From a virus: DNA of 23,742 nucleotides. Numbering within the stretch: position 1 is the first letter of the stretch; every line of letters begins with the position of its first letter. The notes under the pieces are model-generated. The model ran no database searches. It saw only the letters and a program-made list of their open reading frames with translations, and was not told where the DNA came from. This document shows positions 1-23,742 of this stretch, piece by piece. The DNA lies in IMG/VR virus record IMGVR_UViG_3300017598_000203, positions 1-23,742 of that record. One strand, given 5' to 3'. The position numbers were made by a program, and so were the translations under genes.

Positions 1-71
1 AAAAATCTTGTATGGATGATTTAGATTATTGGTGTGACATTGTGGACTATGTGAGATTATATGAAATTGAT
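1..71. repeat. 71-bp direct repeat, left copy (at window edge)
   Basis: Bases 1-71 are identical to 3011-3081, and the match ends at base 72 (A here, T at 3082). The left copy starts at the first base of the window, so it may extend further left. In the right copy the repeat covers the end of the zinc-ribbon gene and most of a 20-codon ORF. In this copy it covers the end of a leftward ORF (47-145). It could be a true duplication or a contig-end artefact. Confidence 0.95.
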
Positions 72-145
72 ATGTCTTTAGCTATAGAACCAGATTCTTT
101 ATCGCTCAATGAAATTCCAGTCTCTTTGAATAAGTGTATTTTCAT
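47..145 (-). CDS. Tiny leftward ORF, 32 aa, unknown function
   Basis: Not recognised. The ATG at 145 overlaps the stop of the upstream gene (TAATG) and follows a strong ribosome site, GGAGGT, within the last codons of that gene. The 32-aa product begins MKIHLFKETG and ends at a TAG at 47-49. Its last 8 codons and stop lie inside the 71-bp repeat shared with 3011-3081. If the repeat is a false joint, the real gene is longer and differs after about residue 24. The start is well supported; the end is not. Confidence 0.5.
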   Translation of the reverse strand: MKIHLFKETGISLSDKESGSIAKDISISYNLT

Positions 146-330
146 TACTCAACCTCCTTGATCCATACCGTTGTTTCTGTTGGGAAAAAGCCACCTTCAA
201 TAACTGGTGACATTTTACGATCACCATTCATAACTTGAAAATCAGCGTGGATTCCGTTGTCCGATTCTTTTATATTTGAGATGCGGTAATAAGTGTCACC
301 GTAATTGTGTTTCATTTTAATTCGTTTCAT
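145..330 (-). CDS. Small leftward protein, 61 aa, unknown function
   Basis: Not recognised. The 61-aa polar protein begins MKRIKMKHNYGDTYYRI, has no membrane segment and no cysteines, and looks like a small soluble beta-rich protein (inference). Its ATG starts directly after the stop of the 56-aa gene upstream, with GGGAGAA as ribosome site inside that gene. It is the fourth of five tightly packed leftward genes driven by the promoter at 817-845. Accessory early genes of this size in phages often act against host functions, but nothing in the sequence shows that here. Confidence 0.7.
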   Translation of the reverse strand: MKRIKMKHNYGDTYYRISNIKESDNGIHADFQVMNGDRKMSPVIEGGFFPTETTVWIKEVE

Positions 331-501
331 TTAGCTGTTCTCCCAGTTTTTAACAATTGATTCATGTCTTTTTATCTTAGCATCAAGTTCTTCTTTTTCC
401 TTTTGATGCCTAGCTTCCATCTCGTTATAACGTGTGTAAAGTTCTGGTAGTTTCTTCTCACTGTAGTTCGCTTGTTGCTGTTCTGTTGTTAGGTAGTTCA
501 T
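331..501 (-). CDS. Small coiled-coil-like protein, 56 aa
   Basis: Not recognised. A 56-aa protein starting MNYLTTEQQQ, rich in Lys and Glu, with a probable amphipathic helix or coiled coil across roughly residues 20-50 (ARHQKEKEELDAKIKRH). Its ATG at 499-501 overlaps the stop of the 28-aa gene upstream (ATGA), and its own stop at 331-333 abuts the next ATG. The ribosome site CGGAGAAT lies in the end of the 28-aa gene. The near-seamless packing on both sides argues that it is translated as part of the leftward operon. Confidence 0.7.
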   Translation of the reverse strand: MNYLTTEQQQANYSEKKLPELYTRYNEMEARHQKEKEELDAKIKRHESIVKNWENS

Positions 502-584
502 TTTATTCTCCGTTTGTTTTTACGTGGTACTAAGTTAAAAAATCTTGCGAGCTTGTGTAGTTTCCATTTGATTGCTTTAATCAT
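498..584 (-). CDS. Microprotein, 28 aa, very basic
   Basis: A 28-codon ORF starting MIKAIKWKLHKLARFF and ending in a Lys/Arg-rich tail. It has a near-perfect ribosome site (AAAGGAGA, 5 bases before the ATG at 584) located at the stop codon of the 62-aa gene upstream. Its TGA overlaps the ATG of the 56-aa gene. The strong ribosome site and coupling on both sides support real translation. The N-terminal half could form a cationic amphipathic helix, so membrane or nucleic-acid contact is possible. No family is recognised. Confidence 0.6.
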   Translation of the reverse strand: MIKAIKWKLHKLARFFNLVPRKNKRRIK

Positions 585-595
585 TTTAATCTCCT

Positions 596-784
596 TTAGA
601 GGTACGGCAATTGTTCTATCACTAATTCTTTATTACGTTCTGATAAATCGTCTATGTCCATTCTATGCCCATTCATTATAACATAAATCGTTGACCAGTA
701 ATAATACCGCCCAAATGAACCAGTCTCATAATCCTTTGTTGCTTCGATCTCGAACTTGTTACCGCTTACTGTTTCGCCTTGCAT
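596..784 (-). CDS. Small leftward protein, 62 aa, unknown function
   Basis: The first gene of the leftward early operon, not recognised. The 62-aa product starts MQGETVSGNKFEIEA and has an aromatic stretch (GRYYYWSTIYVIMNG) in the middle, suggesting a small beta-sheet fold. The ATG at 784 follows a clean ribosome site (AGGAGG, 6 bases before). The leftward promoter with its -10 box at 817-822 lies just upstream. In lambda-like layouts the CI repressor would occupy this place, but this protein is too short and has no HTH pattern. Confidence 0.7.
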   Translation of the reverse strand: MQGETVSGNKFEIEATKDYETGSFGRYYYWSTIYVIMNGHRMDIDDLSERNKELVIEQLPYL

Positions 785-816
785 TATTTCCTCCTGTTTA
801 ATTATTGTATGAGTTA

Positions 817-845
817 TTTATACATGTGGAATAAATGATTGTCAA
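817..845 (-). promoter_or_regulatory. Leftward sigma70 promoter
   Basis: On the minus strand a perfect -35 box TTGACA (845-840) is followed by a 17-base spacer and TATAAA (822-817). Transcription would start near 810 and reach the ATG at 784. The -35 box lies within ATTGACAAT, the reverse complement of the element holding the rightward -35 box at 904-912. Confidence 0.8.
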
Positions 846-899
846 TTGGTTTTGTATAAAAAGATTGTATTTATTTTTTGTATAAAGTTTTTATGTTTT
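838..899. promoter_or_regulatory. Putative operator: repeats at a 13-bp period
   Basis: TTTGTATAAA occurs at 851-860 and 877-886, with the related ATTGTATTTA midway at 864-873, giving three starts exactly 13 bases apart. Weaker members in the same register are ATTGTCAATT at 838 and TTTATGTTTT at 890. They fill the space between two divergent -35 boxes, the expected place for a regulator to act on both promoters. The 63-aa HTH protein encoded next door is the obvious candidate binder (inference). Confidence 0.55.
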
Positions 900-904
900 A
901 ACTA

Positions 905-933
905 TTGACAATGTTTTAAAGTCAATGTAATAT
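905..933 (+). promoter_or_regulatory. Rightward sigma70 promoter
   Basis: TTGACA (905-910), a 17-base spacer and TAATAT (928-933). The -35 box is part of an ATTGAC/GTCAAT inverted pair (904-909 and 921-926), so a dimeric regulator could cover it. It lies about 35 bases before the ATG of the HTH gene and would drive the early operon that ends at 3731. Confidence 0.85.
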
Positions 934-966
934 TAAATCCATACTAACAATAACAAAGGAGATAGT

Positions 967-1158
967 ATGAAGAATGAAGTGTTAAAAACCGCAATTAAAG
1001 AAGCTGGTTACTCTTATGAGAAGCTTGCAAGAGAAATTGATGTAAGTAAACAAACCGTTGCAAATGCTGTTAATGGTAAAAGTATCCATAAACACACAAA
1101 GCAAGTTATTTGCATGACACTAAACAAAACGCTGAACGACCTGTTTGGCGATAACTAA
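967..1158 (+). CDS. Cro-like HTH transcription regulator, 63 aa
   Basis: A DNA-binding protein of the XRE/Cro type. The HTH is clear: helix 2 at about residues 16-25 (SYEKLAREID), a turn, and the recognition helix at 27-36 (SKQTVANAVN). The remainder is one C-terminal helical segment, so it is a bare DNA-binding domain with no peptidase or ligand domain. Length and position (first gene of the rightward early operon, next to a divergent operator) match Cro of lambdoid phages. The ribosome site AAGGAG lies 6 bases before the ATG. The likely targets are the 13-bp repeats and flanking -35 elements at 838-912 (inference). No partner CI repressor gene is seen in the window. Confidence 0.85.
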   Translation: MKNEVLKTAIKEAGYSYEKLAREIDVSKQTVANAVNGKSIHKHTKQVICMTLNKTLNDLFGDN

Positions 1159-1174
1159 TAAATAGAGGTGAGAA

Positions 1175-1909
1175 ATGAGTAACTTAATTCAATCAGTACA
1201 AACGTATTTCGCAAATGAGGTTAATTTTAGCCATATACAAAAAGCCTGTCAGTCTGTACAAGTAAACGAGCAAGTCATGGACGTGATTCAAATCATAGCT
1301 AATAATGCAAAACTACAGCAGTGTTCACCTGCTTCAATTGTTGGCGCAATTATCACTGCAAGTCGTCTTGGTGTTAGTCTTGACCCGAACATAAAACATT
1401 CGTACTTGATACCATATGGAAAGACTGCAAAACTTGAAATCAGTTTCATGGGGTTTATTGACGTTATTTATCGTTCAACTGGCACTCTTCTTGAAGCTCA
1501 TATGGTTTACGCTAACGATGAATTTGATTATCAGCAAGGATCAAAACCACATGTAGAACACAAGCCGTGTGTATTTGGTGATAGAGGTGCCTTGATTGGA
1601 TGCTATGCAATAGGCAGAATGCCAAGCGGTGAGTTCTCTATTGAGTTTCTTACTCTTGAAGATATAGAAGCATGTCGCAAAGTTTCAAAAAATCCAAATG
1701 GTGTATGGAAAACTTGGTTTAATGAAATGGCTAAGAAGTCTGCTATCAGAAGATTATACAAGCGTCTGCCTAAAAACTCAGAGTCGGCAATGGTTGCAAG
1801 TTATGACGAGAAGCAAGAGACAGGTCAAGACACCTCTGAATTTATCGACATTGAAGGCGTGGAAGTACCGCAAGAACAATCAGCAAGCGACAAACTAGAC
1901 GAACTATAA
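1175..1909 (+). CDS. recT: RecT-family single-strand annealing protein
   Basis: A 244-aa member of the RecT/Bet-type annealing proteins, which coat single-stranded DNA and pair complementary strands. The family core is visible: a Cys-Ser-Pro-x-Ser segment at about residue 50, then an ALxxLxP-like helix (GAIITASRLGVSLDP), the strand pair HSYLIPYGKTAKLEISF and the GFIDVIYRS helix. The basic KTWFNEMAKKSAIRRLYK segment follows near residues 180-200. The C-terminal tail is acidic and variable, as in many RecT proteins. The ribosome site is GAGGTGAG, just before the ATG. The gene is followed by a RecE-like exonuclease, the partner that generates single-stranded ends, so the two form a phage recombination module. 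The family call is firm; its use in replication or genome circularisation is inferred. Confidence 0.93.
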   Translation: MSNLIQSVQTYFANEVNFSHIQKACQSVQVNEQVMDVIQIIANNAKLQQCSPASIVGAIITASRLGVSLDPNIKHSYLIPYGKTAKLEISFMGFIDVIYRSTGTLLEAHMVYANDEFDYQQGSKPHVEHKPCVFGDRGALIGCYAIGRMPSGEFSIEFLTLEDIEACRKVSKNPNGVWKTWFNEMAKKSAIRRLYKRLPKNSESAMVASYDEKQETGQDTSEFIDIEGVEVPQEQSASDKLDEL

Positions 1910-1915
1910 AACAAA

Positions 1916-1933
1916 GGGGCTGAAATATGCCCC
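1916..1933 (+). other. Small hairpin with mini-ORF between recT and exonuclease
   Basis: GGGGC at 1916-1920 pairs with GCCCC at 1929-1933 around an 8-base loop. No T run follows, so it is not a terminator. The loop and right arm hold an ATG (1927) opening a 4-codon ORF, M-P-R-N-stop, which ends just before the exonuclease ribosome site. It may mark an mRNA processing point or tune translation of the second gene. Confidence 0.35.
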
Positions 1934-1954
1934 GTAATTAATGAGGTGTGAGAA

Positions 1955-2764
1955 ATGATCCTAGAAATGACAGACGAGGAGTACAGAGCTTTAGAAGGGG
2001 CGAACGCTTCAACACTCAAGAGCTTTATACATTCAGTTAAAGAAGGCAACAAATCGCTTGAGAAACCGTTTAAAGGCTCACCTGCAACAGCATTCGGAAC
2101 ATTATGTCACTCGTATGTTTTGGAGGCTGATACTTTTGAGGATGAATACGCTTTGTTTAAACCTCCTGTTAACGAAAAGACGGGTAAAGAGTATGGCTCA
2201 ACCACAAAGGCGTACACAGAGGCTTTAAATGAGTTTAAAACGCAAGGTAAAACAGCATTTACACAAGAGCATTACGATAAATTAAAAGCCATTGAGCAAT
2301 CAATCAGCAATTGTGACGACACAAAGAAGATTCTCGCAAAGTGTGACCGCAGGGAGTTAGTATTAACTTGGGTAGATGAAAGAACTGGTTTAAAATGCAA
2401 AGCTAAACTTGATGGAGTTGGTGATAAAATCGGCATGGATTTAAAGACGATAGGTGACTTTAAATTTCATGGTTATGATGAAGATTCAGAGCGACTAAGA
2501 AACACAAAATTGCATTATCAATGCTTAGACTATGGTTATTATTTGCAATTTAAACACTATCTTAATGGAATGATTGCGAACGGTTTTGACACAAAAGTTT
2601 TTGCGGTCACATGGGCTGAACGCGATGGAATAAATGATGTATGCACAACTATAATTTCAGATGAAAAGGTAGAGTTAGGGCAATTGCAACTTGATTCAGC
2701 TTTCGACAACTTTATCAACCGCAAAAAAGAATGTAAACTTTTTCATAAAATAAGTGAGCTATAA
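1955..2764 (+). CDS. RecE-like exonuclease (PDDEXK fold)
   Basis: A 269-aa double-strand-specific exonuclease of the RecE C-terminal/DUF3799 type, which resects DNA ends to load the annealing protein encoded just upstream. Visible motifs: GTLCHSYVLE at residues 48-57 with the conserved His52 and Glu57; KAKLDGVG at 149-156 with catalytic Asp153; the metal-binding D-L-K (Asp162, Lys164) in GMDLKTIGD; and the helix HYQCLDYGYYL around 187-197 with Gln189. The spacing Asp153, Asp162, Lys164 and Gln189 fits the PDDEXK nuclease core. Length equals the nuclease domain alone, without the long N-terminal part of E. coli RecE. The ribosome site is GAGGTG, 8 bases before the ATG. Confidence 0.9.
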   Translation: MILEMTDEEYRALEGANASTLKSFIHSVKEGNKSLEKPFKGSPATAFGTLCHSYVLEADTFEDEYALFKPPVNEKTGKEYGSTTKAYTEALNEFKTQGKTAFTQEHYDKLKAIEQSISNCDDTKKILAKCDRRELVLTWVDERTGLKCKAKLDGVGDKIGMDLKTIGDFKFHGYDEDSERLRNTKLHYQCLDYGYYLQFKHYLNGMIANGFDTKVFAVTWAERDGINDVCTTIISDEKVELGQLQLDSAFDNFINRKKECKLFHKISEL

Positions 2765-2765
2765 A

Positions 2766-3029
2766 ATGCCTAAAAGAAAAACTAAGAAATGCTCAAATAA
2801 AAAATGCAAGTCAAAAGGAAAGCCTAAGGATTTAATCAACGGATTCAGCAAGGATAAATCAAAGTCTGACGGCTACTCTTCTTGGTGTAAATCCTGCATA
2901 AACAAGCGTAGCAATGAAGATTCTGATTATGTGCCGATGAGTAAAGAAGAGTTAGCTAATTTCAATGAGAAGTGTAAACAGGAAATGCGAGATAATTTAG
3001 AAACGAGGCGAAAAATCTTGTATGGATGA
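2766..3029 (+). CDS. Small zinc-ribbon protein, 87 aa
   Basis: A basic N-terminus followed by a four-cysteine zinc-binding unit: Cys9 and Cys14 (KKCSNKKCK), then Cys41 and Cys44 (SWCKSCI). The linker LINGFSKDKSKSDGYSS is typical of the short zinc modules on phage endonuclease VII/HNH-like proteins. The C-terminal half is charged and helical, and no nuclease core follows. I chose the ATG at 2766, one base after the exonuclease stop, because GTGAG lies 7 bases before it; an upstream in-frame GTG at 2754 would add four residues but has no ribosome site. Nucleic-acid binding is inferred. The last codons lie inside the 71-bp direct repeat. Confidence 0.75.
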   Translation: MPKRKTKKCSNKKCKSKGKPKDLINGFSKDKSKSDGYSSWCKSCINKRSNEDSDYVPMSKEELANFNEKCKQEMRDNLETRRKILYG

Positions 3030-3081
3030 TTTAGATTATTGGTGTGACATTGTGGACTATGTGAGATTATATGAAATTGAT
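3011..3081. repeat. 71-bp direct repeat, right copy
   Basis: Identical to bases 1-71. This copy has a sensible gene context: it spans the last six codons and stop of the zinc-ribbon gene and runs toward the dUTPase ribosome site. It is therefore probably the native one. The two copies are 3,010 bp apart in the same orientation. Confidence 0.95.
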
Positions 3082-3084
3082 TAA
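3022..3084 (+). CDS. Possible 20-aa micro-ORF
   Basis: An ATG overlapping the end of the zinc-ribbon gene opens MDDLDYWCDIVDYVRLYEID, a 20-aa acidic, aromatic peptide ending 15 bases before the dUTPase start. The only ribosome-like sequence (GAGG at 3005-3008) is 13 bases away, which is far. It could be a real coupled microprotein or chance. In the left repeat copy the same frame stays open to 161 (49 codons). Confidence 0.3.
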   Translation: MDDLDYWCDIVDYVRLYEID

Positions 3085-3099
3085 TTAAAGGAGAAATGA

Positions 3100-3540
3100 A
3101 TGAAAATAGGATTCAAAAAATTAAGCGAGTCGGCAACTATACCAACTCTGAATAATATTACTGATGCAGGAATTGACTTGTACGCCTCAGAGAATGTAAT
3201 GATTACAGCGCACTCAGACGCAATTATCAAAACTGGTATAGCGTGGCAACCTTCAAAGATTCGGATTAATCACAAGGCTGTAATGATTGTTAAAAGTCGT
3301 TCTGGCCTCGCTTTTAAAGAAGGTGTTGAGTGTACAAATGCAGGTGTGATTGACGAGGCTTATCGTGGAGAAATTGGTGTAAAATTATATAATACCACTT
3401 CTGAGTTATACCAAGTTAAAAAAGGCGACCGCATAGCTCAAGGCGTTGTGTATGAATTGCCACACGTTAATATCTTTGAAATTGACGAGTTAACAAAAAC
3501 TGACAGGGGTGAAAATGGATTCGGAAGTAGCGGTAAGTAA
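3100..3540 (+). CDS. dut: dUTPase (dUTP diphosphatase)
   Basis: Hydrolyses dUTP to dUMP and pyrophosphate, keeping uracil out of DNA and feeding dTMP synthesis. All five trimeric-dUTPase motifs are present in order in 146 aa: DAGIDLYA (22-29), KSRSGLA (65-71), NAGVIDEAYRGEIGV (80-94, with the catalytic Asp in VIDEAYRG), KKGDRIAQ (107-114) and the C-terminal P-loop-like RGENGFGSSG (136-145). Length is usual for the family. The start at 3100 has the ribosome site AAAGGAGA; an ATG four bases earlier is out of frame. It sits in the early operon with the recombination genes. The 49-aa gene overlaps its last 26 bases in another frame. Confidence 0.96.
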   Translation: MKIGFKKLSESATIPTLNNITDAGIDLYASENVMITAHSDAIIKTGIAWQPSKIRINHKAVMIVKSRSGLAFKEGVECTNAGVIDEAYRGEIGVKLYNTTSELYQVKKGDRIAQGVVYELPHVNIFEIDELTKTDRGENGFGSSGK

Positions 3541-3664
3541 ATGCAGTGAATGCGAACATAGCGAAGTATGGCCAGACGGTTGCGCGTGGTGTTCAGAGCG
3601 TGGCTATGAGGTTGATGGCAATGATAAGGCTTGCAGGGAGTTTACACAGCAGGTTATAGAATAA
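3515..3664 (+). CDS. Cys-rich small protein, 49 aa
   Basis: Overlaps the end of the dUTPase gene in a different frame. Its ATG at 3515 has the good ribosome site AGGGGTG. The product has two C-x2-C pairs (Cys10/Cys13 and Cys23/Cys26) and a later Cys40, so a small zinc-ribbon fold is likely; no family name is claimed. It is the last gene of the early operon, 19 bases before the terminator stem. Its final 11 bases also overlap, tail to tail, the end of the leftward lipoprotein gene. Confidence 0.65.
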   Translation: MDSEVAVSKCSECEHSEVWPDGCAWCSERGYEVDGNDKACREFTQQVIE

Positions 3665-3812
3665 TAGTTTTATCGCTAAATCTTACCCCGTGGTACTCTT
3701 CTTTTAGAGTGCCATCGGGGTAGTATTTTTTATAATGACAACAACCTGTCATCATTGCAATTAATAGGGCGATTAAAAGTAGAATGATAAAATTAAACGA
3801 GCGATCATCCAT
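3654..3812 (-). CDS. Small lipoprotein, 52 aa, last late gene
   Basis: A 52-aa protein with start MDDRSFNFII, a hydrophobic segment at residues 8-22, and a lipobox-like end (M-T-G-C, Cys24), followed by CHYKKYYPDGTLKEEY. This looks like a lipoprotein signal peptide with a short periplasmic tail, as in phage outer-membrane spanin-type or other lysis lipoproteins (function inferred). The ATG at 3812 overlaps the stop of the DUF1353 gene (ATGGATGA), so translation is probably coupled; no strong ribosome site is seen. The gene contains the whole terminator stem of the opposing early operon, and its last 11 bases overlap the 49-aa gene. The -3 position of the lipobox is Met rather than the usual Leu. 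Confidence 0.65.
   Translation of the reverse strand: MDDRSFNFIILLLIALLIAMMTGCCHYKKYYPDGTLKEEYHGVRFSDKTIIL
3684..3731 (+). terminator. Intrinsic terminator of the rightward early operon
   Basis: TACCCCG (3684-3690), TGG and ACTCT on the left pair with AGAGT, CCA and CGGGGTA (ending 3722) on the right. That gives about 16 paired bases with one wobble pair and one bulged base, around a 6-base loop, followed within 4 bases by six T (3726-3731). It lies inside the coding sequence of the opposing lipoprotein gene. In the leftward direction only a short T-poor tail follows, so it looks one-way. Confidence 0.85.
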
Positions 3813-4281
3813 AACGTTCTATTCGATAGCGATTATCATTTGCAATTGATTTTATAACAGATTCTGCTACAGGCTCAACTCTTACCTTTGATTTGTCAAA
3901 ACATGTCCAACCGCCAAGAAGCAAGCCTTTGTTAATTGCTTGAGCATCACACCATGATTCACCATCTTCACGGCTTAGAAGATAAAGAATCTCGTCACAT
4001 TCGCGCTGTGTGAATTCCCAACCGCAATTAGAACTGTATAACCAATCATGCACTACAAACGCTCTGAGACTTTTACCCATGCGATTTAAGAAACCGCGAA
4101 CAGGTGAAGGAATGGAGCCAAAGTTGGTCTTAAATCCACACGGGATAGTTAATATTCGTCTGTCAGTCATTCTTACTTGAACGTGAGAAAGAGTTATCCA
4201 GTGTTCTCCATTCCACTTGTCACCTTTGATATAAGGCACACAAGCGAAATCTTTAAGAGGTGTTATGAAATGAGGTTGCAC
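3805..4281 (-). CDS. DUF1353 family protein, 158 aa
   Basis: A DUF1353 protein, found at the end of tail or lysis modules in many phages; its biochemical role is unknown. The signature is clear: CGFKTNFGSIPSP at residues 48-60 (family pattern TDFASIP) and AFVVHDWLYSS at 74-84 (family pattern HDxLY), with conserved His and Asp. The start is a GTG at 4281 whose first base is the last base of the upstream TAG stop (TAGTG), so it is coupled to the 137-aa membrane protein. The stop overlaps the lipoprotein start. The context of membrane protein, DUF1353 and lipoprotein suggests a lysis or host-exit cluster, though no lysin is seen. Confidence 0.85.
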   Translation of the reverse strand: MQPHFITPLKDFACVPYIKGDKWNGEHWITLSHVQVRMTDRRILTIPCGFKTNFGSIPSPVRGFLNRMGKSLRAFVVHDWLYSSNCGWEFTQRECDEILYLLSREDGESWCDAQAINKGLLLGGWTCFDKSKVRVEPVAESVIKSIANDNRYRIERYG

Positions 4282-12277: not shown

Positions 12278-13032
12278 TCTGTGAACCCGTACATTTCTAA
12301 ATCCCAACCTTTTTGAGGCTCACCGCCCGAATTAATAAACGTTGAATCATTAAATTTATAAGTTCTACGACATACCCAATAGCCACCGTCTCTAGTTATA
12401 GGACAAGAAGTGACAAGCCACATATTACCGTCTTCTGTTGATCGGCCGTAACTATTTGAAGGGTCTACGAGTAAGCCAACAGATTTAGATATATTAATTG
12501 CTTTTTCTTCTTCCGTCCAGTATATAGTTTCTAGGACTTCAACAGTTGGCTTTTGATAAGTGTTAGATGATTTGGTTCTCGATTTAATTATAGTTTCAGA
12601 GCCGGACGCATTTACATTTGTTCTGATAAAGAAATTGTCATACTCTGAATTACCTTCTATCTCTGAAATCTTCTTTAGCGTGTCCCATGATTCTGGAGCC
12701 GTTGCAGTTGAGTCGCTAGAAGTTAAGTAATGATCCCATTTCACTAGATAATCTTTATTGTGTGATAATGGTGCGTCAATAGTCGAGGCTCTTAATTCTG
12801 TATCAAATCGACCCGGCTTTTTCCATGAGTAATTTAAAATCAAATCACCCATTTTACCACTGCTTGGTTGCCAATCCGCATCATAAAAATATGTCTCGCT
12901 TGCGTCTGGATTTGGTTCACCTAGTTCGGGTATTCTGTAATCGAGCTTGCTTACAAGTCTTTTTACAATACGTCCAGTTTGCCTAGTTCCGCTTACCTTT
13001 AAGGCACCGCTTCTTGGTTGTTCGTCAGCCAT
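12274..13032 (-). CDS. Tail structural protein, 252 aa, unknown family
   Basis: Not recognised at family level. It starts with a basic segment (residues 10-30: LKVSGTRQTGRIVKRLVSKL) and continues as a Trp/Tyr-rich beta protein with a late segment GGYWVCRRTYKFNDSTF. Its position directly after the tape measure gene is where siphoviruses encode the distal tail protein and related baseplate parts. The ATG overlaps the tape-measure stop (TAATG), with the ribosome site AGAGGT. Its stop overlaps the next start. Confidence 0.55.
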   Translation of the reverse strand: MADEQPRSGALKVSGTRQTGRIVKRLVSKLDYRIPELGEPNPDASETYFYDADWQPSSGKMGDLILNYSWKKPGRFDTELRASTIDAPLSHNKDYLVKWDHYLTSSDSTATAPESWDTLKKISEIEGNSEYDNFFIRTNVNASGSETIIKSRTKSSNTYQKPTVEVLETIYWTEEEKAINISKSVGLLVDPSNSYGRSTEDGNMWLVTSCPITRDGGYWVCRRTYKFNDSTFINSGGEPQKGWDLEMYGFTE

Positions 13033-14138
13033 TATATACCTCTATCCGTGTTATTTGCAATTCTTTCTAAAATATCAAGCCTGTCCGATTCTGCTTGAGA
13101 CATCCCACCGTTTGCCCCCTGAGTTCTACCAATTGCCTCTGCACCAAATCCCATAGCGCCACCTAATGCACTAGCACCCGAACTTAATGGACTGAGATAC
13201 CAAGGAACTTGAGAAGCAACGTCTGTTGCTAAATCTACTTTTCCATAATCTTTCAAGCCTGTTGTTTTAGATAAATTACCACCATCGCGTGTAGACTCAA
13301 GCAAATCAGCAACCACTTGCAAATCTTTGATTAAAAGACCCATAGGACCACGCATGTTTTTTGCCTGTTCTGTCCAATTTATAAAAGTATCAGTGATTGA
13401 AATTAAAGAATTTTGTAATGGCCCCCCTATGTCAGCAGTAAGGTTTTGAATCTTACCTTGAAGCGTTGACCATTTACCGAGAAGAGTTTGAGACTGCTTT
13501 TCCATTAGCCCGGCATATATACCGCCATTACTTGTCATTTCCTTAAATACTTGGTTTAAATCTTTGAATTTTATTTTACCAGTTTCAGCCATTTTAAATA
13601 TTGCTTCTTTCGGTCTGTTCATTGACTTAGCTAGTTTATCAATTATTGGCACACCTGCGTTAACAAGTTGCAATAGTTCTTTTGTTTGAACCTTTCCCTT
13701 ATTCATTGACTTAGCATATAGTTGTGCCATTTCGCCCAAATCTTTTCCCGTACCTGCGGATATATCACCAAGCATTTTAATCACATTAACTGTATTTTCT
13801 GCCTCAACGCCTGCACCTGCTAGAACTTTACCAGCCTCAATAACTGAGTTTGTATCAAATGGCGTAACGTCTGCAAACTTACGCAAATCGCTTATAAGTT
13901 GTTTTGCTTTTTCCGCTGAACCGAGAAAGGTTTCCATTGCTAATTGCGTTTGAACAAGTTTACCGCTCATTTGTCCGATTTTAGCAATGGTGCCAACAAT
14001 AGCAGTACCAAAACCAATTAAGCCTAAGCCTATGTTTTTTGCAGATTTTCCAAAGCGTTTAAATTGAGCTTGTGCACTCTTTAAACCTGCTTGCAATCCT
14101 TTTGTTACGGCTTCAATTTTTACGCTTAATTTAGGCAT
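13032..14138 (-). CDS. Tail tape measure protein (short), 368 aa
   Basis: Sets tail length and is injected with DNA. The N-terminal tape-measure domain is clear: an N-terminal basic helix (KIEAVTKGLQAGLKSAQAQF), a hydrophobic stretch at about 36-50 (IGLGLIGFGTAIVGTI), then ETFLGSAEKAKQLISDLRKF, FADVTPFDTNSVIEAGKVLA and KGKVQTKELLQLVNAGVPI, the conserved core of phage tape-measure N-terminal domains. The helical middle ends in a Gly/Ala-rich segment (SSGASALGGAMGFGAEAIG). At 368 aa it is very short; if the usual scaling of about 0.15 nm per residue holds, the tail would be only about 55 nm. The ATG overlaps the upstream stop by 8 bases. Confidence 0.88.
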   Translation of the reverse strand: MPKLSVKIEAVTKGLQAGLKSAQAQFKRFGKSAKNIGLGLIGFGTAIVGTIAKIGQMSGKLVQTQLAMETFLGSAEKAKQLISDLRKFADVTPFDTNSVIEAGKVLAGAGVEAENTVNVIKMLGDISAGTGKDLGEMAQLYAKSMNKGKVQTKELLQLVNAGVPIIDKLAKSMNRPKEAIFKMAETGKIKFKDLNQVFKEMTSNGGIYAGLMEKQSQTLLGKWSTLQGKIQNLTADIGGPLQNSLISITDTFINWTEQAKNMRGPMGLLIKDLQVVADLLESTRDGGNLSKTTGLKDYGKVDLATDVASQVPWYLSPLSSGASALGGAMGFGAEAIGRTQGANGGMSQAESDRLDILERIANNTDRGI

Positions 14139-18688: not shown

Positions 18689-20075
18689 CTTCTTCTCCTA
18701 TCAATGCTTGTCCCGGCTGTCCAATGACCACCGAAGCGTTATTATCTTTTATTTGTGTTTCTTCGCGTCCTAGTTGCTCAATAACATCAGTGAACTCTAA
18801 ACCTTTCTTTTTGCATTCTAAAGCTCTGTTTGATACACCCGAAGCGATACGCATTTGAGTAGCTTGAACCTCTTTGAGTTCGTCTATCCAAGGAGTACCT
18901 TGTGGTATAAACTCGTAGTCAATCTCAGACGGTGCGCCTTTAATGCTTTTCAATAGTTCCGGTAGTACCCATTCTGCTATATTCTCAAGCGCATCAATAT
19001 TTGTTGCACGCTTCTGCTTTGCTGATAGTTCGTATTCTGCTCTATCCTGCTTATTCGCTGAGTAACTTGAACCTTGTGAATTGAAGAAAGTATAAGGAAT
19101 ATCAAAGGCGAGTAAGGCAATTCTGAGCATCAATGAGACATAATCTTGGTACTCGTTTGAAGGTGTTTTGCTTTCAAACATGTCAATTTTATCATTTTCA
19201 TCAAGCTCTAGTTTTAAGCCCATATCCATTTGAAAATCATATTTATCAGTATCCGCGTCCGGCTCATCGCCTGTTTCTTCATCAAACTCATTGAAGCCGG
19301 ATTCACCGCTACCCTCTGACATAATAGCAAGTCCAAACATACCATGCTTCTTACACTTCAATAACAGAGCTTCGTTACACTCGATTATATCCATGAACGT
19401 ATTGACAGCCGATGCCATTGGTGATATACCGCGCAATTGGTCGAAGCGTTGAAAGTAACCGTCAAAAATTATATTCTCTGGTGTTACTGATGATTGGTAT
19501 GATAACTGCCCGCTTTGATCGCGCTTGTTAATCATATAGCGTCTAACTGCTCCGAATTGGTCAAGAATTAACCCTTCATCATTTGTAACTTTCTCATATG
19601 ATTTAGGAATATTGCCAGCTTTACCGATTCTATCAGATTCCACACCTTGGAGTTTAAATCCTTTAATCTTTAGAAGTGCTGAATCACCATCAAATGCTTT
19701 ACCGGACTCAAACAAACGCATGATATTATTTAAGCTATGGCGCTTTGCAATATCACAAGACTCTTTCTTGCTCCACTTCTTCCATGCCTTTTCTATCTTC
19801 TTGTTCATTTCTGAATCAGTTGTTTTAGCTTGAAATGTAAAGGTTGAAACGTAGTCAAGATGCTTTCTTAGTGCCCAGCCCACAGTAGGGTCGTTTCGTG
19901 AAAGGTCTTTGATAGTTGCAACTAGTTTAATTCTGTCACGCCTTGAAAGAACTTTACTTTCGTTCTGTACTCTTGTTTTCGGTGCTCTGCGTCTGCCTTT
20001 ATTAGAGACAGCGTTGTAACCTAATTGTTTTTTATTAGGTGATAGTGACGGGTTCACAAATGAGTAATTATCCAT
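18669..20075 (-). CDS. Portal protein, lambda family, 468 aa
   Basis: Forms the dodecameric ring at the head vertex through which DNA enters and leaves. Recognised as a lambda gpB-type portal: the N-terminal region has LVATIKDLSRNDPTVGWALRKHLDYVS, the central GISPMASAVNTFMDIIECNEALLLKCK is the family segment (P-x-x-x-x-A near a helix that lines the channel), and later SLMLRIALLAFDIPYTFFNSQGSSYSANKQDRAEYE and VLPELLK follow. Length is typical of a lambda-type portal. A highly acidic loop (about residues 264-290) precedes this block. The start overlaps the upstream stop by one base (TAATG). No terminase was found upstream of it in the window. Confidence 0.92.
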   Translation of the reverse strand: MDNYSFVNPSLSPNKKQLGYNAVSNKGRRRAPKTRVQNESKVLSRRDRIKLVATIKDLSRNDPTVGWALRKHLDYVSTFTFQAKTTDSEMNKKIEKAWKKWSKKESCDIAKRHSLNNIMRLFESGKAFDGDSALLKIKGFKLQGVESDRIGKAGNIPKSYEKVTNDEGLILDQFGAVRRYMINKRDQSGQLSYQSSVTPENIIFDGYFQRFDQLRGISPMASAVNTFMDIIECNEALLLKCKKHGMFGLAIMSEGSGESGFNEFDEETGDEPDADTDKYDFQMDMGLKLELDENDKIDMFESKTPSNEYQDYVSLMLRIALLAFDIPYTFFNSQGSSYSANKQDRAEYELSAKQKRATNIDALENIAEWVLPELLKSIKGAPSEIDYEFIPQGTPWIDELKEVQATQMRIASGVSNRALECKKKGLEFTDVIEQLGREETQIKDNNASVVIGQPGQALIGEEDGMVSE

Positions 20076-20293
20076 TAGTTAAATGCACTCCCGAAACGAG
20101 CAGAAGACACACGCGGTCTTGAACCTATCTCATTATTATACTGTTTCTGTAAATCTTTTTGCATTCCGTAAAGGTCTTTAAGATTTGCGCGTGATACTGA
20201 GCGACCGTCAAGAGTATAAGACTGATTATTCAAAACAGCAGTAATTGCGCCTTGAACTTCCATCAATTGCTCTAATGCTGTTTTTAATGCCAT
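20075..20293 (-). CDS. gpW-like head-tail joining protein, 72 aa
   Basis: A small helical protein (MALKTALEQLMEVQGAITAV) with the hairpin YTLDGRSVSRANLKDLYGM at residues 26-44, the core pattern of lambda gpW/DUF6148-type proteins, which join portal and neck and are encoded right before the portal in many phages. The basic tail contains RPRVSSARFGSAF. A ribosome site (GGGGC) lies 6 bases before the ATG. It is the first head gene after the fibre-like genes upstream. Confidence 0.75.
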   Translation of the reverse strand: MALKTALEQLMEVQGAITAVLNNQSYTLDGRSVSRANLKDLYGMQKDLQKQYNNEIGSRPRVSSARFGSAFN

Positions 20294-20385
20294 ATAGCCC
20301 CTGTATAAGTTATTCTAATATTAGTTTTCTTAATCTACCATTAAAAAAACCAATATACAAATAAAACCTACTATGTTAATTTATT

Positions 20386-21927
20386 TTATACCGATATACT
20401 CGGCTTTACGTTTGATTTGGTGTCGAGGTTTGCGTCAGTTATCGCTTGATCTGCTTGTGATTTAACTTGTGCCTCGCTGATATTGTTCAGATTGCCAATA
20501 TCTGTTTGGATTGCAGTTTGAACATCTGTGACATTAGTCGGAGTAGCAGGTGCGACTGTATTCGCTCCATCGGTACCGCGCATGTTGCTTGCAATTGTTG
20601 TTGTTGCTGTAGCCCAATCACCTTGATTTCCTTGTAGCTCGTTTGTATCAACCAATATCGCATCCACAACCGTATCAACCGCATCAACCTTAGCTTCTAT
20701 GTCTGCTATGTCAGAAAGTATCTGCGTTTGGTTTGCTAATGTGGCATCTCCGCCTCCACTACCTGCTGTAGTATATACTGGTGAATAATCCATCTGAATA
20801 CTGTTTGAAGTACTGGCAATAATAGTCGCACTGTCATCACGATATAATCTACCACCCTTAAGTAAAAGAGCGTTTGCTTTTGTGTTGTGAATTTTCAAGT
20901 CTACACAATCAGTACAAACTTTAATAGAGTTGGTCGTCTCCCACTCGATACCACCGAGAAGGTTTCTTATTCCGTCTTCTGTTGTGATGTAGTAATAATT
21001 CCAAGCACCTAGACGCTGAATTTGTGTAACATTATCTGCATCGTTAATATCAACGTGAATATCACCACTATCAAAGGTGAACTCAGTAACAGTTGAACCG
21101 TCTAACCCAAAGTCATTATATACAGAGTCATCAGTTTGATTTGCAAGAACCGACCAACCTGCCGAGCCTGCAACTGCATTTGTTTCAAAGTCACTTTTAG
21201 CAGTAACACCGCTTTGATATGCAAGTCTAACTCTGACAGTGTCGCCTTCAGTGTAGTCTGCGCCCTCGTTATAGGTCGCGCTGTAGCTTGTGCCTGATAC
21301 AACCTCATTTGCAACTTCGCTTGCTGTGGTCACATTGTAGACTTGGAGCCTTGAGCCTGCGACGATGCCTGTAATACTAACTGATCTAGTATCATTGACT
21401 TCTACATTAGGTCCAGTAACAGTAGTTATGGAAGAGTTATCTAAGACTAAAGTAACTGTACCTCCAGATGAATTAGTTACTTCGTTGATTGTACACCCAT
21501 TTAAGTTGTAAGTTCCAGTCGTAGTAAAGTCTAATGCACCTGTACAAGTTACGTCTGTTATTGTAGTTGAGTCAGAGTCATAGCTAATATCACAATCAAA
21601 GTTACCCCCAGAAAGTGCTGTTGCCCCACGAACTGTAGTTGTACCTGTTGTTGCCACCACACCACCTGTGAATGTAGTTGATTTAAGTGTTGCGTCTGCT
21701 CCTGTTAGCGAGAAAACATTTGTCTCTGTAGAGTCTAGAATTAAGTCTCTATCTTCAATCTGAAGCTGCTCACCAACAATGTCGTACCAGAAAGTTGTTG
21801 TTGCGTAGTCATCATCACCTGCCCAATATAGTTTTGCCACTGCAAAGGCTTCATCGTTTGTATTAGCCTCTGTAAGTGCTGATGCCTGAACTGCTGTCAA
21901 AGTAGTAGCTTCTTCCGCTACACCCAC
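20386..21927 (-). CDS. Tail-fibre-like protein, C-terminal part of a split gene
   Basis: A 513-aa Thr/Ser/Asp-rich beta-helical protein with a C-terminal coiled coil (near residues 395-425: ANQTQILSDIADIEAKVDAV), a typical trimeric fibre shaft. The annotated start is a GTG at 21927, but the same frame is open back to 22056 and its extra codons read as protein (NRFTQDGAVTFEYNLAVDND, then LTYTDFDGLILV). So the gene probably continues without a proper start here. The gene upstream (21975-23177) lies in the other frame and ends in the same segment; a single base change would join them into one protein of about 940 aa. No ribosome site precedes the GTG. Its place between other fibre parts and the portal is unusual. 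Confidence 0.65.
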   Translation of the reverse strand: MGVAEEATTLTAVQASALTEANTNDEAFAVAKLYWAGDDDYATTTFWYDIVGEQLQIEDRDLILDSTETNVFSLTGADATLKSTTFTGGVVATTGTTTVRGATALSGGNFDCDISYDSDSTTITDVTCTGALDFTTTGTYNLNGCTINEVTNSSGGTVTLVLDNSSITTVTGPNVEVNDTRSVSITGIVAGSRLQVYNVTTASEVANEVVSGTSYSATYNEGADYTEGDTVRVRLAYQSGVTAKSDFETNAVAGSAGWSVLANQTDDSVYNDFGLDGSTVTEFTFDSGDIHVDINDADNVTQIQRLGAWNYYYITTEDGIRNLLGGIEWETTNSIKVCTDCVDLKIHNTKANALLLKGGRLYRDDSATIIASTSNSIQMDYSPVYTTAGSGGGDATLANQTQILSDIADIEAKVDAVDTVVDAILVDTNELQGNQGDWATATTTIASNMRGTDGANTVAPATPTNVTDVQTAIQTDIGNLNNISEAQVKSQADQAITDANLDTKSNVKPSISV

Positions 21928-21974
21928 AAGAATTAATCCATCAAAATCCGTATAAGTTAAATCATTATCAACAG

Positions 21975-23177
21975 CTAGATTATACTCAAATGTAACCGCA
22001 CCATCTTGTGTAAACCTATTTTCGTATTGCCTTCCACTTGGATTGTTGAATCGTAGTCAGTTATTTGCGAAAGGTAAAGGTCACCACCTGATGTAGCTCC
22101 TGTGTGTTGTGCTTGCCTTGTTACCACCACTGGGAAATCATCTCCAAATGGAATTGTAGGGCTTCCTTGTAAGACAAGCTCTCCATTAGAGTCTGATTCA
22201 TAATCAAGGTCAAGTGGAGTGCCGTTGATACTATTAAACTGAGCACTTGAGGAGAATCCGTAAGGTAGAGTTAGACGGCATTTAGCACCCTGTATTTTAG
22301 TTGTACCAACAACATCAGAGGAAACAATAGGGTCAAACTTTAATGACTCATAAATACGTCCATTCCTTACATTTATGTTTGTTGATTGGTCGTATCGACA
22401 GTTACCTGTACCGGAGAGCTTAGTTACAGGGTTAAGCGACAGGATACTAGGACTGTAACTCTTATCACCTTGACCAATTGCGTAAATAACAGGTGTTCCA
22501 TTTGAGGCTACCTCAAGGTTGCTAACAACCGAGTCTCCTTGCCCCCAGTTAAAGTAAGTAAAGTCAAATAGCCTGTTACCCGAGAACTCAATAGCGCTAA
22601 GGTCAAGACTTGGTGCGTCTGAGCTTAACTCCCAGTTAGAGCCAGTTGTAATGTGAGAAGTATTGTTATTATTAACCCTTGAACCATTACGCATATAAGC
22701 GAATGTGTTACCCTCTAGGTTGTACCAGTTAGAATTAAGGAAATCAGCCACAAAGTAGTTAGACCTTGAGCTTGAGTTTGATGCAGAAACTTTTTGGTAT
22801 ACAGTACATCCATAGAAGTTAAATGTCCTACTATTTGCTTGGTTTCCTGATACTCCTGCGATTATATCCCCCGAGTTATTTGCTCCCGCACTATACTCAA
22901 AATATCCAGTTAATCCTAATGGAGAATCGCTTGTGTCGTTTATATTTACAACACAGTTATAGAAAGATATGTGTACACCGTCAGCAGTAAGTGTAGTCCT
23001 GCCATTTAAGTCAACAACTGCATTCTTGATTACATAATAACCAGTAGCTGATATGTTACTAGCCGTAGCCTTAGTAACTGTATCACCACTTCTTGTAAAT
23101 CCAAGTGGAAGGCTCTCTGATGAGACTGATGCCCCAGAAAACCTATTGACCATGTCTGAATCAGTATAGAATTTCAT
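21975..23177 (-). CDS. Tail-fibre-like beta-helix protein, N-terminal part of a split gene
   Basis: A 400-aa Ser/Asn/Gly-rich protein with many short strands and regular turns (for example NAVVDLNGRTTLTADGVHIS and SFYNCVVNIND), a pattern of right-handed beta helices such as those of fibre or tailspike proteins. Near the end (SQITDYDSTIQVEGN) it reads well, but the last 14 or so codons (TKIGLHKMVRLHLSII) look out of frame while the neighbouring frame gives a better protein. It starts at an ATG overlapping the 48-aa gene stop (ATGA). The 29-base inverted repeat (22041-22069) lies across its last codons. Confidence 0.65.
   Translation of the reverse strand: MKFYTDSDMVNRFSGASVSSESLPLGFTRSGDTVTKATASNISATGYYVIKNAVVDLNGRTTLTADGVHISFYNCVVNINDTSDSPLGLTGYFEYSAGANNSGDIIAGVSGNQANSRTFNFYGCTVYQKVSASNSSSRSNYFVADFLNSNWYNLEGNTFAYMRNGSRVNNNNTSHITTGSNWELSSDAPSLDLSAIEFSGNRLFDFTYFNWGQGDSVVSNLEVASNGTPVIYAIGQGDKSYSPSILSLNPVTKLSGTGNCRYDQSTNINVRNGRIYESLKFDPIVSSDVVGTTKIQGAKCRLTLPYGFSSSAQFNSINGTPLDLDYESDSNGELVLQGSPTIPFGDDFPVVVTRQAQHTGATSGGDLYLSQITDYDSTIQVEGNTKIGLHKMVRLHLSII
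22041..22083. repeat. Imperfect inverted repeat, left copy
   Basis: Bases 22041-22083 match the reverse complement of 23700-23742 at 39 of 43 positions. The first 29 are identical, then 5 differ almost entirely, then TAAAGGTCA is shared. The copies are 1.6 kb apart in opposite orientation and both lie inside genes read leftward. The right copy ends at the window edge. Confidence 0.9.
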
Positions 23178-23320
23178 TTTTCAGTATTACCTCCTACCGC
23201 CACTTCACCCGAAAGCTTTGGGTCTGAGAAAGTTGTTAGGGATGTAACACCAGTTAATCCGCTTAAATCGGCATCTGTCCCTGTTTGAGTGATTATTCCG
23301 CCATTAAAAGAAAAGCTCAT
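23174..23320 (-). CDS. Small tail-associated protein, 48 aa
   Basis: An ORF that starts MSFSFNGGIITQTGTDADLS and ends in GEVAVGGNTEK. It has a ribosome site AGGGG before the ATG at 23320, and its stop overlaps the ATG of the fibre gene (ATGA), so it is translated with it. The GLTGV-T-SLTTFSDPKL stretch is a short beta unit of the kind found repeated in fibre proteins. No independent function is known; it may be an adaptor between two fibre parts. Confidence 0.6.
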   Translation of the reverse strand: MSFSFNGGIITQTGTDADLSGLTGVTSLTTFSDPKLSGEVAVGGNTEK

Positions 23321-23332
23321 GTGTACCCCTAT

Positions 23333-23740
23333 TTAAACTTTATTAATTGTTCGCGTTGGTTTGCCAGTCAAAACCTCGCCTGTATATGTGAGTGCTGTGG
23401 TAACTGTCCACACTTGAGAATTGTATGTAAATTCATGAACTAACTGTGTCAGAAGATCGCCCGTATAGGTGAGTGTCTTGCTGTTTAGTGTTACATCTGC
23501 CGTATCATCGTAATCAATGCTTGTTAACTTCCCCGATGTATAAACAAAACCTCCATCTGTAACAGTTGAATTACCTGCTAGATATATAATGTAATCGTCG
23601 TCATAATCAAGTTTACCATCTAACTCCGCCTGAAGGTCTGTTTGATCTGATAAAGTACCCTCAAGACTTCCCCAAGTATTTACGCCCTGTTCGCCTTGTT
23701 GACCTTTAACGCCCGCAAATAACTGACTACGATTCAACAA
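23333..23740 (-). CDS. Tail-fibre-like protein, partial at window edge
   Basis: The frame is open to the right edge, so the start is missing; the first in-frame candidate is a TTG at 23740. The product has a short collagen-like stretch (GVKGQQGEQG), then NTWGSLEGTLSDQTDLQAEL, the classic hinge-plus-helix found in fibre proteins, then a Thr/Tyr-rich beta end. It belongs to the fibre group and precedes the 48-aa gene by a short gap. Its first residues (from LNRSQLF) lie inside the inverted repeat and may not be native if the edge is a false joint. Confidence 0.6.
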   Translation of the reverse strand: MLNRSQLFAGVKGQQGEQGVNTWGSLEGTLSDQTDLQAELDGKLDYDDDYIIYLAGNSTVTDGGFVYTSGKLTSIDYDDTADVTLNSKTLTYTGDLLTQLVHEFTYNSQVWTVTTALTYTGEVLTGKPTRTINKV

Positions 23741-23742
23741 TC
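23700..23742. repeat. Imperfect inverted repeat, right copy (at window edge)
   Basis: Reverse complement of 22041-22083 at 39 of 43 positions, with the perfect 29 bases (23714-23742) running into the window end. It lies at the 5' end of the partial fibre ORF. Because both edges of the window fall in repeats, a break or chimera at a repeat is a fair explanation. Confidence 0.9.

Follow-up and report, generated by a model that had tools for sequence, protein, structure and literature searches.

A short inverted repeat around fibre genes at the end of a metagenomic phage contig is best explained as a fold-back chimera

Two short inverted copies of one sequence lie on either side of fibre coding DNA in an IMG/VR virus record (IMGVR_UViG_3300017598_000203), which raises the question of whether this phage flips a tail-fibre segment or whether the repeat was made while its DNA was being copied. 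Both readings figured in the original prediction. We find that the repeat is best explained as an amplification or assembly copying accident and not as a genetic switch. Specifically, it is very probably an inverted (fold-back) chimera, formed in vitro, with which an incomplete metagenomic phage contig ends. The window, that is, the whole stretch of DNA analysed, is the entire linear record of 23,742 bases and is part of a tailed-phage genome. Its left part encodes on the plus strand a RecT (PF03837), a DUF3799 PDDEXK-like protein (PF12684) and a dUTPase (ORF 3100-3540; PHROG 135, E 3e-48). The minus strand carries the tail and head genes, among them a tape measure (13032-14138; PF20155), a capsid (PF20911), a portal (PHROG 21) and a head-tail adaptor (PHROG 118), with a fibre block at 20386-23742 upstream of the adaptor. 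The tape-measure-like protein is only 368 aa long. A scan of 26 of the record's proteins against PHROGs or Pfam yielded no terminase match, which makes it probable that the genome is incomplete; PHROG 2, which we take to be the large terminase family, likewise had no match in the record.

A repeat search of the window pairs 22041-22086 with 23697-23742 (46 nt, 89% complementary), the two arms being separated by 1,610 nt; this is the longest inverted pair among the matches listed (25 of the 86 in the window). Compared letter by letter, the arms agree over 29 bases, then at one position of a 5-base core and again over nine bases, which bears out the 39 of 43 originally claimed. Past one mismatch there follow two more matches, giving 41 of 46, and in this comparison no similarity runs inward of the 46-nt arms. 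The exact 29-mer occurs twice in the window and nowhere else in it, and it forms the window's only exact inverted pair of at least 20 bp at a spacing of 300-5,000 bp. The right copy follows the left exactly over the 29 bases up to 23742, where the record, and with it the match, breaks off; it had been described as lying at the window edge and, as the window is the whole record, it indeed constitutes the last bases of the contig. The repeat is far beyond chance expectation: the longest terminal inverted suffix is 29 bases, compared with a maximum of 11 and a mean of 7.55 in 100 order-3 Markov copies of the window.

The anatomy of the two arms is directly visible in the letters of the record, as are the reading frames, the position of the copy at the exact end of the record and the partly homologous stretch by the junction. 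The exact part of the left copy (22041-22069, minus strand) is in frame in ORF 21975-23177, where it reads ...QITDYDSTI, and we take it as the native template. Adjoining it is a stretch of partial homology (22070-22086, minus strand) made up of the 5-base core at 22070-22074 (one match in five), nine identical bases at 22075-22083 and a final two matches in three; this is the proposed landing site of a 3' end. At the other side, 23697-23713 (plus strand), consisting of TGTTGACCTTTA followed by ACGCC, forms the native side of the proposed junction and would have supplied the priming 3' end. The exact 29-base inverted copy at the record end (23714-23742, plus strand) is proposed to be non-native DNA copied from 22069-22041, of which the first three bases, CGC, may be native. 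Read along the plus strand, the native end TGTTGACCTTTAACGCC is followed by CGCAAATAACTG..., the same as in the left copy, which carries TGGTGACCTTTACCTTT ahead of the shared CGC; both arms have TGACCTTTA-N5-CGC in common. When 300 random window junctions were examined, 2% found a partner that matched in three bases and had a run of nine no more than 8 bases away (6 of 125,753 pairs). Thus, nine matching bases near the join are not expected by chance.

These features fit a copying event that would have started in strand-displacement amplification, or in another copying step before or during library making. The plus-strand 3' end at about 23716 (...TGACCTTTAACGCCCGC) would have come loose and, with its sequence TGACCTTTA-ACGCC-CGC, annealed imperfectly at 22067-22083, either on the very strand it belonged to or on a displaced one of the same polarity. 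Pairing through TGACCTTTA and the terminal CGC would have left the 5-base core mispaired, and extension leftward would have copied about 26 bases, down to 22041. The assembler would then have followed such reads until they were exhausted, and these would have become the last bases of the record. We infer the copying in vitro, the enzyme responsible and the way in which the assembler ended; a strand-displacement step is the likeliest source, although from the sequence by itself it would be indistinguishable from PCR, ligation or a rearrangement within the phage population. The variable core, which had been proposed as what a recombinase site could look like, makes better sense as the portion of the priming 3' end that failed to pair.

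Published chimeras from MDA offer a close parallel. In the study by Lasken and Stockwell (2007; PMC1855051), 406 of 475 chimeras were inverted and 337 of these 406 joined sequences less than 10 kb apart; priming took place at two or more complementary bases (as many as 21) in 76.8%, and annealing with mismatches was named as possible, so that literature has room for a primer whose core is mispaired. The same account has the 3' end priming nearby displaced strands and gives hairpin self-priming no major part (PMC1855051), which makes priming on a nearby displaced strand the likelier form here. Further figures come from passages of two other studies: more than 95% of overlaps measured 3-13 nt in a larger one (PMC5372508), and inverted chimeras made up on average 91.36% of single-end chimeras in the other (PMC6515389). 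The present repeat resembles MDA inverted chimeras in being an inverted copy of a segment less than 10 kb away (1,610 nt), in having short complementarity at the join, in the loss of the intervening stretch and in being tied to no gene or enzyme of the organism. It differs in that the complementarity is split into nine bases, a 5-base mispaired core and at least three bases. The spacing of 1,610 nt also counts against the chimera in exceeding the 80-280 nt preference given in the passage cited, although it is within the 5-kb range stated there (PMC5372508).

The reading frame that enters the right arm carries related information. On the minus strand, 23333-23713 (GVKGQQGEQGVNTWGSLEGTLSDQTDLQAEL...) is the C-terminal part of a collagen-like tail-fibre gene, the upstream part of which is off the contig. 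Its product matches a PHROG tail protein (PHROG 25379, E 4.2e-5) and, in part only, seven IMG/VR loci. In a targeted comparison with the fibre of Curvibacter phage PCA1 it scored 73, whereas the best of 500 shuffles reached 54; a tblastn of phage records at E 0.01, PCA1 included, gave no match. In the minus frame of the window, LLNRSQLFA stands directly before GVKGQQGEQG, and the Gly-X-Y pattern stops exactly where the arm begins. At the same point in both copies of one matching locus (L003), EQGLGGIGRQ precedes the GVKG unit, and the GVKG units seen in PCA1 are preceded by Gly-X-Y text. Judging from these two relatives, the point where the arm starts would thus fall inside a collagen-like run, which supports the chimera. 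Among the seven loci matching the right-end ORF, only L003 has the GVKG unit. Taken as sole proof of the chimera, the phase of the collagen pattern was set aside: among the matches listed, 120 pattern places include four collagen-like GVKGQ places, of which those in L081 and L121 (near-duplicates) come after Gly-X-Y text and those in L111 and L129 after other text, so that runs do start after other text as well. The GVKGQ run of L129 is short.

The left copy adjoins a change of reading frame. The second fibre gene as it stands in the record begins with ORF 21975-23177 (minus strand, 400 aa), and probably continues in another frame as ORF 20386-21927 (minus strand, 513 aa), so that the two ORFs are probably one fibre gene in two frames. 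The 513-aa ORF matches a 982-aa protein of PCA1 (35.3% over 40% of the query, E 2e-18, in a tblastn of all phage records; 28% over 399 positions pairwise, without composition correction) and, in part only, three IMG/VR loci. The 400-aa ORF has no family, IMG/VR or phage match; compared with the 982-aa protein it scored 65, the maximum in 100 shuffles being 73, and gave no alignment above the shuffles. Consequently, the one-gene reading rests on the second part, the length and the open frames, the lower frame (20386-21927) being open up to about 22056. Codon-usage scoring, with both gene halves in the training set, places the switch best at 22011-22013, with nearly as good positions up to 22031 and a score 2.4 bits worse at 22043. 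The frameshift earlier noticed next to the left copy is thus upheld, and it is probably located immediately beyond the arm, at the side of the left copy and not in its middle. If the switch were inside the 29 bases, it would be common to both copies. It may be an assembly error or a mutation; the sequence fits either.

For the fibre block, PCA1 (OP588919.1) is the nearest usable relative. There too, a collagen-like fibre gene is followed by a fibre-like gene, related to 20386-21927, among head genes; unlike in the window, this second gene is a single 982-aa ORF, annotated as a hypothetical protein. The PCA1 block comes after the terminases, adaptor and portal and before the protease and capsid, hence between portal and protease, whereas that of the window is upstream of the head-tail adaptor and portal; its place in the head module differs between the two phages. 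Since PCA1 has a fibre block among its head genes, this placement appears from the comparison not to be peculiar to our record. The PCA1 record itself starts and ends within the collagen-like repeat of a fibre gene (L135 7348-7757 and L133 1-305), and its assembly may be broken there. Other relatives are distant. Searches of IMG/VR with the 400-aa ORF, the portal and the major capsid found no relative, and the dUTPase found one relative there, at 40% identity; none of the ten records behind the loci matching the right-end and 513-aa ORFs has a portal match. Among phage records, a DNA-level search with 20000-23742 and 1-4000 found nothing, and protein searches found 14 records for the portal (all below 60% identity; 21.5 to 25.2% among the matches listed), one for the capsid, two for the 513-aa ORF and none for either the 400-aa or the right-end ORF. 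In bacterial and archaeal genome contigs, the right-end ORF had one partial match and the 513-aa ORF none. Native sequence running across either arm was found from no near relative in IMG/VR, the phage records or the bacterial and archaeal contigs.

The left end of the record is unusual as well. Its bases 1-71 (plus strand) are an exact 71-bp direct copy of 3011-3081 (plus strand), a stretch comprising the end of ORF 2754-3029 and the sequence before the dUTPase ORF, and depart from it at base 72. This repeat implies a join of 3081 to 72 in some reads (a 3,010-bp circle or a tandem join), or a second chimera. As controls we used 130 other loci of the same collection (L003-L132; 1.22 Mb), 119 of them chance pattern matches, from among the matches listed, and some of them near-duplicates (L017, L066 and L122; L081 and L121); repeats were sought within the stretch of each locus, often part of a contig. 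A terminal inverted copy of at least 14 bp was present at none of 107 cut ends and none of 153 true contig ends. Direct terminal copies reached at least 14 bp at one of the 153 true ends (17 bp) and at least 20 bp at none. Exact inverted pairs at 300-5,000 bp measured at least 20 bp in none of the 130 loci, 18 bp in one and 14 bp in 30. Exact direct pairs of at least 29 bp occurred in 11 of the 130, and the left-end repeat alone is therefore less odd than the right-end one. That both ends of a single record are odd suggests to us a shared cause in sample making or assembly. The controls also provide a point against the chimera: with no terminal inverted copy at the 153 other ends, this is not a common artefact of the collection, and a chimera would have to come from the handling of this sample. 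A further point against it is that the exact copy is limited to 29 bases and that the continuation that would prove it would fall off the record. Overall, the chimera, which the original prediction had named as a serious alternative, is best supported, by the place at the record end, the left-end copy, the homology at the junction and the stop codons that inversion would bring.

Among the other explanations, the one that survives best is a real rearrangement in the phage population, in which template switching or illegitimate recombination in the cell left an inverted duplication. The junction anatomy to be expected from it, partial homology at the join included, is the same; we nevertheless consider it improbable, as it would disrupt the fibre gene extending past the right end and leaves unexplained both the anomaly at the left end and the fact that the record ends within 29 bases of the junction.

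Somewhat less probable still is a real invertible fibre segment, the arms of which would be sites for a recombinase, of the serine or tyrosine type, with its gene in another part of the phage genome or in the host, so that flipping 22070-23713 would change the fibre. The layout itself invites this reading. The arms flank fibre coding sequence, identical inverted sites of 29 bases, long enough for a recombinase site, are present on either side (the right one cut by the record end), and a site within these 29 bases would not involve the core, so that the differing core by itself does not exclude it. As in Mu G, P1 C and e14 P, inverted copies lie either side of fibre coding DNA; here they are about 1.6 kb apart, a spacing like that of the e14 P segment, given as 1,797 bp with 16-base repeats in the passage cited (PMC12529663). 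The same passage describes two e14 genes in opposite orientation, from which inversion produces two complete chimeric genes (PMC12529663). The window, in contrast to these three systems, has neither genes in opposite orientation nor an open frame after inversion, no recombinase was found on its contig and its right copy ends an incomplete contig. All ORFs of at least 70 aa in the segment are on the minus strand, and no plus-strand open stretch in it exceeds 58 codons. After inversion, all three frames entering from the right would stop, the longest open run being 17 codons from the record end, and stops would occur in every frame across the left junction; the immediate stops on both sides that had been foreseen are therefore confirmed by frame analysis. 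The search for an invertase detected no resolvase (PF00239) or phage-integrase (PF00589) domain on the contig, which weighs little, as the contig is incomplete and the gene could lie outside it. The sites of invertible segments have imperfect dyad symmetry within each site. The best dyad in the 29-base arm is 6 of 10, reached by 168 of 500 shuffles and hence no excess, and no stable hairpin above shuffles was found in the arms. In addition, 20 of the 29 arm bases (22050-22069) had no exact match in the other IMG/VR contigs scanned, from which near-identical records may be omitted. With ORFs running one way, stops on both sides, no recombinase domain on the contig and no dyad, we could not sustain the invertible segment as first suggested. 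A narrower form, in which an off-contig recombinase acts on the arms as its true sites and flips the segment on and off, with the differing 5-base core beside them, seems even less credible to us; if true, one orientation would truncate both fibre proteins.

An equally slender chance attaches to a native short inverted duplication, in which a plus-strand gene beyond 23742 would share the QITDYDSTI segment with the left gene. The right copy does read QITDYDSTI on the plus strand in the frame matching the left copy, but a stop (TAA) precedes the shared part in that same frame, the neighbouring DNA encodes protein on the opposite strand, and for 29 bases to have stayed exact the duplication would have to be very recent. 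A covalently closed telomere was rejected by reasoning, as a 1,610-nt loop is unfit for a hairpin end.

Taken as a fold-back chimera, the inverted repeat is thus best explained as no real biological feature of this phage, the letters themselves being real in the record. The case serves as a warning that an apparent invertible fibre switch can come from a short inverted copy at a metagenomic contig's very end; a quick safeguard is to examine both ends of a contig for sequence copied from its interior.
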